Below, piece after piece: positions 18,913 to 20,693 of a DNA stretch of 22,366 bases (position 1 is the first letter of the stretch; every line of letters starts with the position of its first letter). Position numbers and translations under genes: made by a program. This DNA comes from a virus. The stretch covers positions 1-22,366 of the IMG/VR virus record IMGVR_UViG_3300030333_000959; one strand, 5' to 3'. Below the pieces are notes generated by a model. It saw nothing but the letters and a program-made list of their open reading frames with translations, had not been told where the DNA came from and searched no databases.

Positions 18913-19300
18913 ACTACCAAATGTTAATCTTCCTAAACCTATACCTTTAGGTCCACTACAAATTGAATTTAAACCACCTAATGCTCAGATTCCATCTTAT
19001 AAACCTATAATAGTACCACCTACTGATTTAGAAGCTCCTGAAGGAGTAGAAGAAGAGACTACAGAAGAAGTACCAGCAGCACCTAGTTTGAAAATACCTG
19101 TTATAGATATTCAGATGCCAATACCAGAACCTGCAGTAGTTGTAACTGCTGTTACTACTGCTGTGGTAGCTGTGGCTACTACATCTATAACATCATCTTT
19201 ATTTGAACCAATTAAAAAAAAAGTACAAAAATTCCTACAAGGTAAAGTAGATAAATGGAAGCAAAAGCGAAAGAAGAAAAAGGACTCTTCGGTAAATTAA
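18899..19300 (+). CDS. Proline-rich single-span membrane protein
   Basis: A 133-residue protein. Residues 1-75 are rich in Pro (LPNVNLPKPIPLGPLQIEF and similar), with an acidic patch at about 44-58. Residues 79-102 are a hydrophobic segment made of Val, Ala and Thr. Residues 105-128 are very basic (KKK, KWKQKRKKKK). By the positive-inside rule, the C-terminus would be cytoplasmic and the Pro-rich arm in the periplasm, with no cleavable signal. I recall the family as conserved in cyanophages without known function. Lying next to a holin-like gene, it could take part in lysis or envelope disruption, but this is inference. A nine-A run lies at 19214-19222 with the frame intact. Confidence 0.7.
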   Translation: MQQIKLPNVNLPKPIPLGPLQIEFKPPNAQIPSYKPIIVPPTDLEAPEGVEEETTEEVPAAPSLKIPVIDIQMPIPEPAVVVTAVTTAVVAVATTSITSSLFEPIKKKVQKFLQGKVDKWKQKRKKKKDSSVN

Positions 19301-19539
19301 AAGATGCTGCAGAAGATCAAGAACATCAAATACAAATTTTAGGTACATTTGTCCGTCTTGGAGTTGTAGTTTGGAGCGGATTTATCATTACGTTAAATTA
19401 CGTAGAAATACCTATGATTAAGAAAAGTCCAGGTGGTGATATCACGTTCCCTGCTTCGATTTTTACTGGAGCACTTGCAACTTTCGGGTTGACTACTGGT
19501 AACGGTAACGGTAACAAAAAAGAAAAACCAAAACAATGA
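19255..19539 (+). CDS. Small two-helix membrane protein, holin candidate
   Basis: A 94-residue protein. Residues 1-28 are charged and amphipathic (KLKDAAEDQEHQIQILG). A first hydrophobic segment covers about 30-52 (TFVRLGVVVWSGFIITLNYV) and a second about 63-82 (ITFPASIFTGALATFGLTTG). The C-terminal tail is hydrophilic and Lys-rich. Size, two membrane segments and a charged tail fit a class II type holin, and the T7 holin also lies close to the terminase genes. No endolysin is encoded in the window, so the role is inferred. The gene overlaps the upstream one by 46 bases in another frame, and its stop overlaps the next ATG (ATGA). Confidence 0.7.
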   Translation: MEAKAKEEKGLFGKLKDAAEDQEHQIQILGTFVRLGVVVWSGFIITLNYVEIPMIKKSPGGDITFPASIFTGALATFGLTTGNGNGNKKEKPKQ

Positions 19540-19907
19540 AGAAATGGCTAGTACTCTTATTACTGGCAGCACCCACGGTAGCGAGAGCAGAGTTAGTGAC
19601 TCCCAATTTTACACAGGGATCAATGAACTCAACAACAACAACGACTCAAGAGATTGTAGAGGAAATAACTACGACAACCTATGGGTCCGCATTAAACAAA
19701 TGGAGTGGGGAAAATATAACCCATACATCAGCCTCATCAGGAGGTATAGTCGATTCAGATTCGGTATTCACCTTACACACAGCTGGAGATCCCTTCTCAC
19801 TAGAAGTGGTATCAAGAGCAGCAAGTCAGGTGCTATCCGTAGAAGTAATAGACAGAGAAATAGATACCTCGTCTACTACGGTCTCCTTATCAGTCTTCTC
19901 TCAGTAG
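19536..19907 (+). CDS. Exported small protein with signal peptide
   Basis: A 123-residue protein. Residues 1-18 are a clear Sec signal peptide (two Lys, then WLVLLLLAAPTVARA), with predicted cleavage before Glu19. The mature part is Thr/Ser-rich: ELVTPNFTQGSMNSTTTTTQ near the start and a TSSTTVSLSVFSQ end. I recall homologues with the same start and SVFSQ end in marine cyanomyoviruses, without a known role. Start ATG 19536 overlaps the upstream stop (ATGA). Nearly all of the gene is also open in the -1 frame (from 19544), and the next exported protein's signal peptide is encoded in that frame over its 3' end. Confidence 0.75.
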   Translation: MKKWLVLLLLAAPTVARAELVTPNFTQGSMNSTTTTTQEIVEEITTTTYGSALNKWSGENITHTSASSGGIVDSDSVFTLHTAGDPFSLEVVSRAASQVLSVEVIDREIDTSSTTVSLSVFSQ

Positions 19908-20428
19908 CACCAGTACGTGCAGAGGAGGAGAACAATAACGTAAGTAATCCAGTAGCTGCTGCGACTGGGAATGTGACCAATCAGGCGGTGCAATTTCAAA
20001 ATAATGGAGCACCATCCAGGCAGCACTATGGACCTAACATTTCGTGCAATGGAAGTACAATGACTTTCTCACCATTCTATATGGGAAATCATACGACTCC
20101 TTGGGATATAGATGATGAATTAGGTATGGAACAAAAGAACTATACCGTTGCCGAAAACTGGGGGGCACAGATTAACTTTATGGTTCCTTTAGACCGTAGA
20201 GGCTTAAAGCGTTGTCTCTCCATTGCTGCAAGGCAAGAAGAGAAGATGCGTCTTGACTACGAATTAGTCAGAACATTGAAATGTGCAGAACTACAGCAAA
20301 AAGGTTTTATGTTAAAGCCTGGTAGTCGTGTAGCAAACATGTGTAGTGATGTAATTCCTATCACTGCTTATTTAAAATCTATAGCCCCTAAAGAAGAAAA
20401 AACTAAACCTTGGTATAAACCATTTTAA
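19835..20428 (+). CDS. Second exported protein, four cysteines, start codon uncertain
   Basis: The frame is open from ATG 19544, but the part that looks like a protein starts near 19835. It begins with a basic n-region (RRSNRQRNR), a hydrophobic core (YLVYYGLLISLLSV) and an APVRA site giving cleavage after 19921. The mature part has NPVAAATGNVTNQAVQFQNN, ISCNGSTMTFSPFYMGNHTT, FMVPLDRRG and MRLDYELVRTLKCAELQQKG, and four Cys that could form two periplasmic disulfides. I recall close relatives in cyanophages as separate signal-peptide proteins. The only in-frame ATGs upstream are 19544 and 19700, with no GTG or TTG. ATC 19835 with AGG before it is a possible rare start. Function is unknown. Confidence 0.7.
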   Translation: MRRSNRQRNRYLVYYGLLISLLSVAPVRAEEENNNVSNPVAAATGNVTNQAVQFQNNGAPSRQHYGPNISCNGSTMTFSPFYMGNHTTPWDIDDELGMEQKNYTVAENWGAQINFMVPLDRRGLKRCLSIAARQEEKMRLDYELVRTLKCAELQQKGFMLKPGSRVANMCSDVIPITAYLKSIAPKEEKTKPWYKPF

Positions 20429-20430
20429 CT

Positions 20431-20535
20431 ATGACATACGCTAACAAAAGTGCAAGAGAACTATTAGCTGAAAAAGAAGCAGCAGCTAAAGCTAAAAAAG
20501 CAACTAAGAAATCCACTAAAACTACTAAAGAATAA
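20431..20535 (+). CDS. Micro-gene, 34-residue Ala/Lys-rich peptide
   Basis: ATG 20431 opens a 34-residue frame: MTYANKSARELLAEKEAAAK, followed by Lys/Ala/Thr-rich residues. It begins 2 bases after the preceding stop and its TAA shares a base with the next ATG (TAATG). The regular packing and acceptable start support translation. The protein is probably helical and basic at its C-terminus. I recall comparable Ala/Lys-rich peptides near cyanophage terminase genes, with no known function. It may also serve only to couple translation. Confidence 0.55.
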   Translation: MTYANKSARELLAEKEAAAKAKKATKKSTKTTKE

Positions 20536-20693
20536 TGATCCTAATTTTAAAGCCTATCCTTTTCGCCTTTTTAAAGTCCAAAGCAGTTAAGCAACTTGTT
20601 GTTGACCTGTTAGAAGGCTTGGCAAAATCCACAGATAACACACTTGATGATCAAGCTGTGGCACTGGTAAAGAAGAATTTATTACCTGAATAA
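20535..20693 (+). CDS. Small conserved phage protein, 52 residues
   Basis: ATG 20535 opens a 52-residue frame: MILILKPILFAFLKSKAVKQ, then LVVDLLEGLAKSTDNTLDDQ and a C-terminus LVKKNLLPE. The first 14 residues are strongly hydrophobic with basic residues after them, so it may bind membrane at its N-terminus. The second half is an acidic amphipathic helix. I recall close relatives throughout marine cyanophages, but no function. Both ends are TAATG overlaps with neighbours, placing it in a tight unit with the small terminase candidate. Confidence 0.7.
   Translation: MILILKPILFAFLKSKAVKQLVVDLLEGLAKSTDNTLDDQAVALVKKNLLPE

Follow-up and report, generated by a model that had tools for sequence, protein, structure and literature searches.

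Start codons hidden in tryptophan codons of an overlapping gene: a pair of putatively exported proteins in marine cyanophages

Results

A probable dual-coding gene pair in a T7-like cyanophage

The window analysed here, a 22.4-kb (22,366-nucleotide) fragment from a T7-like cyanophage virus record, carries two genes for predicted exported proteins, P1 and P2, that overlap on the same strand. On comparative sequence evidence they form a -1 (phase-2) overlapping gene pair with both frames under selection across the overlap: the P2 frame is kept stop-free far beyond chance, and the amino acids of P1 are conserved. The best overall explanation, which we consider likely, combines an ordinary P2 start codon concealed within a P1 Trp codon, dual coding of the overlap and a disposable leader. 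The relevant features of the window are as follows.

19255-19539, + strand: upstream membrane protein with DUF6450, overlapping the P1 start by 4 nt
19536-19907, + strand: P1, predicted exported protein of 123 aa, ATG open reading frame; PHROG 650, DUF6322-like
19544-20428, + strand: P2, predicted exported protein, 294 aa if begun at the preferred codon, in the -1 frame with respect to P1; PHROG 848/1755 ('gp165' family)
19544-19546, + strand: preferred P2 start codon, within AAA-TGG (Lys3-Trp4 of P1) and 8 nt downstream of the ATG of P1
19547-19867, + strand: P2 N-terminal extension ahead of the hydrophobic core, about 108 aa counting Met1, with 19 Lys/Arg and 7 Asp/Glu
19700-19702, + strand: alternative or additional P2 start codon, within AAA-TGG (Lys55-Trp56 of P1); putative start of the sister clade
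19835-19837, + strand: ATC suggested as a rare start codon, rejected
19868-19921, + strand: P2 signal peptide core and signal-peptidase-I-type site (VRA/E), dual-coded with the P1 C-terminus and running beyond the P1 stop
19922-20425, + strand: mature P2, 168 aa, with four Cys conserved family-wide

P1, placed at these positions as an exported protein in the preliminary description of this DNA, was confirmed as an ATG open reading frame with a signal peptide. Its start is overlapped by the upstream membrane-protein gene through the sequence ATGA. The predicted signal peptide is of the Sec type and comprises residues 1-18 (MKKWLVLLLLAAPTVARA). In 372 of 373 sequences mature P1 is free of Cys, and its C-terminus (TTVSLSVFSQ) is conserved, relatives sharing the ending (S/T)xF(S/T)Q-stop. 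DUF6322 matches 14 of 19 members of the P1 family, the window's copy falling below the cut-off. Apart from DUF6322 in these relatives, searches of Pfam and of the PDB by sequence and by fold gave nothing significant for P1. The P1 model is a long beta hairpin (mean pLDDT 83), and its PDB fold matches, including those to beta-pore stems, were all insignificant. A viral fold search with the P1 model returned significant matches solely to unnamed or uncharacterised proteins, the named ones being phage proteins.

The P2 frame encodes LVYYGLLISLLSVAPVRA followed by EEEN. With a basic n-region, a hydrophobic core and an AxA-type site all present, P2 is predicted to be a secreted protein of the Sec/signal peptidase I type, and core and AxA-type site are kept in all relatives compared. 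Searches of Pfam and of PDB sequences gave nothing significant for P2. The model of mature P2 is of low confidence (mean pLDDT 64; beta strands and one long helix).

Relatives and their annotation

Homologues of P2 were found in 420 phage records from T7-like (Autographiviridae) and T4-like (Kyanoviridae) cyanophages, and homologues of P1 in 49 records at the threshold used for P2. The sample comprised 22 annotated relatives, six viral-contig sets and cyanophage contigs out of genome assemblies. Together they yielded 479 loci, of which 373 carry a complete overlap distinct from the others. Relative to P1, P2 lies in the -1 frame in 314 of these and in the +1 frame in 59; the sequences are related to each other, and the counts given here are non-independent tests. 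The +1-frame overlaps form one clade that includes P-SCSP1d and P-SCSP2, with an ATG in all of them. Confinement to a single branch indicates that the overlap frame switched once in the history of the family. In P-SCSP1d and P-SCSP2 (L021:1134-1968 and L022:1134-1968), the P2 ATG lies 18 codons upstream of the P1 stop. Five contigs of cyanophage type with P1/P2 (L152, L153, L154, L155, L158) were found in bins labelled Flavobacteriaceae, Neomarinimicrobiota, Crocinitomicaceae and Gammaproteobacteria, and were probably mis-binned.

By sequence, P2 and P1 are members of the cyanophage 'gp165' family (PHROG 848/1755) and of PHROG 650 (DUF6322), respectively; in the public records of these families P2 starts vary or P1 is omitted. 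The deposited P2 start is the Trp4-derived ATG in NATL1A-7 and P-SSP6 and the Trp56-derived ATG in P-SSP10. In NATL2A-133 (L002), SS120-1 (L006) and P-SSP7 (L007) it was placed at internal codons, leaving the C-terminal part only. P1 is unannotated in NATL1A-7 (L001), P-SSP10 and P-SSP6 (L004, L005).

The P2 frame is kept open within P1

The preliminary description had noted a -1 frame open from 19544 and regarded its length as unusual. The frame is indeed open, but its extent had been understated, since it is stop-free from 19493 to 20428. Synonymous recoding of P1 placed this far beyond chance: the whole -1 frame is free of stops in 71 of 82 window-like P1 genes, with none expected under the phage's own codon usage. 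By the same recoding, the +1 frame of P1 was neutral over most of its length and stop-free in the last 11 codons only. Eight other genes in the window did not avoid -1-frame stops.

A second test made no assumption about the start. The last NTG before the signal core was located, and -1-frame stops were counted on both sides of it. After the last NTG no stop was found in any of the 314 P2 frames, with 256 expected from synonymous shuffling within P1 and 295 from recoding with the window's codon usage. Before it, 856 stops were observed against 777 expected (shuffle), as under neutrality. Thus, P2 translation would start at or before that codon, the frame ahead of it being unconstrained on average. 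Selection on the -1 frame over its whole length in every lineage was rejected, since in many lineages stops occur at neutral frequency ahead of the start.

P2 start codons derive from Trp codons of P1

An ATG, GTG or TTG in the P2 frame was present in all 373 overlaps. Of 470 such codons in the -1 frame, 469 derive from a Trp codon of P1 (N/TGG) and one from Cys. An earlier paper states that phase-2 starts can arise from TGN codons (Cys, Trp) alone (Sabath, Graur and Landan 2008, PMC2542354). Since the P1 codon must begin with TG and mature P1 lacks Cys, NTG codons in the -1 frame arise at Trp.

In 178 of the 314 sequences only a single NTG follows the last stop, which would fix the P2 start. 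These single-start sites fall at the Trp of the WSG motif or its T4-like equivalent (118 sequences), at the Trp at codon -37 (40), at codon -22 (16) and at Trp4 (4). Among cultured isolates, the predicted P2 start is a GTG in the Trp at codon -37 in P-SSP7, an ATG at -22 in P-SSP2, an ATG at -64 in S-RIP2 and the Trp4-derived ATG in NATL1A-7. Most site classes include genomes in which the frame is closed by a stop upstream of the single possible start, and in 101 sequences a distance of 1-5 codons separates the last stop from the first possible start after it. Parsimony on a tree of mature P2 gave at least 13 changes of start site among the single-start sequences, a minimum from a quick tree and non-independent sequences. 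Judged from these sequences, different lineages must use different Trp codons of P1 as the P2 start. Sequence comparison thus shows the overlap, the selection on its open frame, the derivation of the starts from Trp codons and the differences in start site among lineages.

The P2 start in the window

As the preliminary description stated, no ATG, GTG or TTG stands shortly before the P2 core; the nearest in frame is at 19700 and the next at 19544. The main start in the window is probably 19544. The 82 P1 genes of the window's length split in two, into the window's clade (n = 63) and a sister clade (n = 18; P2 motif NYR...YYC). In the window's clade, no -1-frame stop was found between 19544 and 19700, against 110 expected, and none beyond 19700, against 191 expected. 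Synonymous sites at codons -102 to -73 were as variable as under random codon choice in this clade, so that the absence of stops does not come from shared ancestry alone. In the sister clade, stops upstream of the Trp56-derived ATG were neutral over most of the length (8 against 7.4 and 7 against 7.9 expected) and fewer in the last 16 codons ahead of it (4 against 15.5). Downstream of this ATG there were none against 72 expected. This pattern of stops before and none after indicates that P2 of the sister clade begins at the 19700-equivalent codon.

The Trp4-derived codon is ATG in 63 of 63 sequences of the window's clade (Lys3 is AAA in 63 of 63, Lys2 AAA or AAG). The sister clade also has this ATG in 17 of its 18 sequences, and 10 of these contain stops further on; conservation of the codon by itself is therefore weak evidence. 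The Trp56-derived codon is ATG in 47, GTG in 15 and CTG in 1 of the window's clade, and ATG in all 18 of the sister clade. Use of 19700 in the window too, giving a P2 of 242 aa with 19544 unused or both codons used, would fit its obligatory role in the sister clade, the ATG or GTG found there in 62 of 63 window-clade sequences, and the annotation of P-SSP10, which begins at the homologous ATG. We regard it as rather unlikely: the 110 stops expected between the two codons are missing in 63 sequences with mostly random-like synonymous sites, and one sequence (L086) has CTG at the 19700 position and has retained the 19544-equivalent ATG and the open frame.

No Shine-Dalgarno motif was found upstream of P1 in the window, and in the window's class such a motif occurs in only about half of the sequences, mostly 3 nt from the P1 ATG. 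In 37 of 95 members of this class, the Shine-Dalgarno-like AAGGA is spaced 3 nt from the P1 ATG and hence 11 nt from the Trp4-derived one, neither distance being optimal.

Other readings of the P2 start

Of the origins that the preliminary description had offered for P2, dual coding from a distant ATG gained support from the open-frame selection that begins at Trp-derived start codons. The others fared worse. Initiation at a near-cognate codon just ahead of the signal core, such as ATC 19835, appears highly improbable. The ATC is common to the window and its three close relatives NATL1A-7, NATL2A-133 and P-SSP6; it is replaced by GTC in P-SSP10 and R27W and by AGA or other codons elsewhere. 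No relative lends support to initiation there. In several genomes the roughly 20 codons preceding the core include neither ATH nor NTG, the frame is held open much further upstream, and a standard start is available in every overlap. Least credible of all is a P2 start broken by a point change or sequencing error, for which nothing speaks beyond the absent nearby start itself. Cultured and uncultured relatives share the arrangement, and their frame is selected to stay open; most of them likewise have no start close by, and all 373 overlaps offer a standard one further upstream. Relatives that all carry an ordinary ATG near 19835, which would have pointed to such a change, were looked for in the alignment and were not found.

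A -1 shift of translating ribosomes late in P1, yielding a P1-P2 fusion, is also very unlikely. It would be compatible with the -1 position of P2 in 314 of 373 overlaps and with the conserved DNA of the P1 C-terminus. Inspection of the aligned C-terminal codons by eye revealed no conserved slippery heptamer, however, and the selection on the open frame extends far upstream and begins at Trp-derived starts, often with stops just ahead of them. In one lineage P2 is read in the +1 frame from an ordinary ATG, and a fusion would place the signal peptide in the middle of the chain.

Constraints on the overlap and a proposed mechanism

Over most of the overlap, P1 amino acids are conserved far more than residues of the P2-frame extension, which is poorly conserved and merely stop-free. 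A check of synonymous sites, as the preliminary description had proposed, showed that P1 synonymous diversity falls to 0.39 of expectation in the part coding for the P2 core (codons -12 to -3). Core hydrophobicity of P2 was above that of stop-free P1 recodings in 105 of 120 sequences. The charge of the n-region is largely a by-product of the frame. P2 therefore seems to demand little of P1 beyond the absence of stops and a hydrophobic end. Such modest demands fit disposal of the leader once P2 is exported, and this in turn would explain why leader length ranges from about 20 to over 100 residues.

We propose that P1 and P2 are expressed as exported proteins from overlapping genes on one late transcript, and that P2 is translated by ordinary initiation at the ATG hidden in a P1 Trp codon. 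In the window, initiation most likely at 19544 would place nearly all of P1 inside the 5' part of P2, in the other frame, and the two start codons would probably compete for the same arriving ribosomes. The basic P2 leader of about 108 aa would stay in the cytoplasm and be removed together with the signal peptide after VRA, probably by signal peptidase. Provided that it is free of stops and ends in the hydrophobic core and AxA site, the sequence of the leader would be nearly irrelevant, which would leave the start free to move among P1 Trp codons between lineages. Initiation, export, cleavage and disposal of the leader are what we infer from the sequence patterns; against the model stand the unusual length of a leader of about 108 aa ahead of a Sec signal core, the missing Shine-Dalgarno motif in the window and the Trp4-derived ATG that the sister clade keeps in spite of later stops.

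Genomic neighbourhood

In T7-like relatives the pair lies behind the gene for the DUF6450 membrane protein and, as a rule, ahead of the small terminase gene. Neither an Rfam family nor any persuasive promoter or terminator turned up in the region. The stretch that separates P2 from the gene after it is filled by a short Lys/Ala-rich open reading frame at 20432-20535 (MTYANKSARELLAEKEAAAKAKKATKKSTKTTKE). The next small gene (20535-20693) belongs to PHROG 2738 and is separate from P2 in P-SSP2. In P-SSP3 and P-GSP1 (L009:1797-2507 and L011:1746-2462), P2 seems to have lost its stop codon and to continue into the homologue of this small gene.

In T4-like cyanophages, the gene preceding P1 (PHROG 564; OMP1 protein in S-RIM8) is weakly P1-like (PHROG 650, E = 0.001; DUF6322, E = 0.09), which suggests a tandem paralogue of P1. 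The three copies with weak similarity to the P1 family lie as follows.

L018:671-1123: PHROG 564 gene preceding P1
L017:696-1202: PHROG 564 gene preceding P1
L019:735-1196: PHROG 564 gene preceding P1

Discussion

Long overlapping genes and Trp-derived phase-2 starts are already known in general. As in the long same-strand phase-2 overlaps described before (PMC2542354), the downstream gene begins in the -1 frame within the upstream gene. In P2, by contrast, the start has shifted many times from one Trp codon of P1 to another, in the extreme leaving the two genes almost fully overlapped, and the apparent reason is that the extension serves as a leader that can be disposed of. Searches of open-access papers turned up no account of the P1/P2 overlap, of DUF6322 or of a start migrating among the Trp codons of a partner gene, and keyword searches in papers about P-SSP7 and P-SCSP1u were uninformative as to P1 and P2.

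As to function, an envelope or lysis-stage role is our guess. Two-component spanins with embedded or overlapping genes, among them Rz/Rz1 of lambda (PMC6139136), offer a parallel: there, too, two exported phage proteins are encoded in overlapping frames behind a gene for a small membrane protein. Two-component spanin genes are, like P1 and P2, frequently missed in annotation (PMC6139136). Among 91 phages without recognisable spanins, a published survey (PMC6139136) listed 20 phages of Prochlorococcus or Synechococcus, which makes a spanin-like role attractive. Unlike spanins, P1 has neither a lipobox nor a mature Cys, and both proteins carry sites of the signal peptidase I type. A two-component spanin defined by an o-spanin lipobox was rejected, a lipobox-like pattern being found in 1 of 373 P1 and 0 of 370 P2 sequences. 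Compared with an i-spanin, P2 has an N-terminal hydrophobic segment and, in a low-confidence model, one long helix, but also the conserved AxA-type site. It is doubtful that P1 and P2 jointly disrupt the envelope in place of the spanins that cyanophages lack, their ratio being set by out-of-frame starts 8 nt apart. That idea is based on the survey, the predicted export of the pair, the Rz/Rz1-like overlap, the adjoining small membrane-protein gene and the beta-hairpin model of P1, whose fold matches to beta-pore stems were insignificant.

The public annotation of this widespread cyanophage protein pair is inconsistent, and gene-finding tools that penalise long overlaps would overlook pairs of this kind. 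P1 and P2 provide a large and clean natural experiment, in hundreds of abundant marine phages, on a gene start moving into a neighbouring gene. They suggest that a cleavable leader lets the start of a gene wander, up to near-complete overlap. If the pair acts in lysis or at the envelope, it would bear on how cyanophages without recognisable spanins breach the outer membrane.
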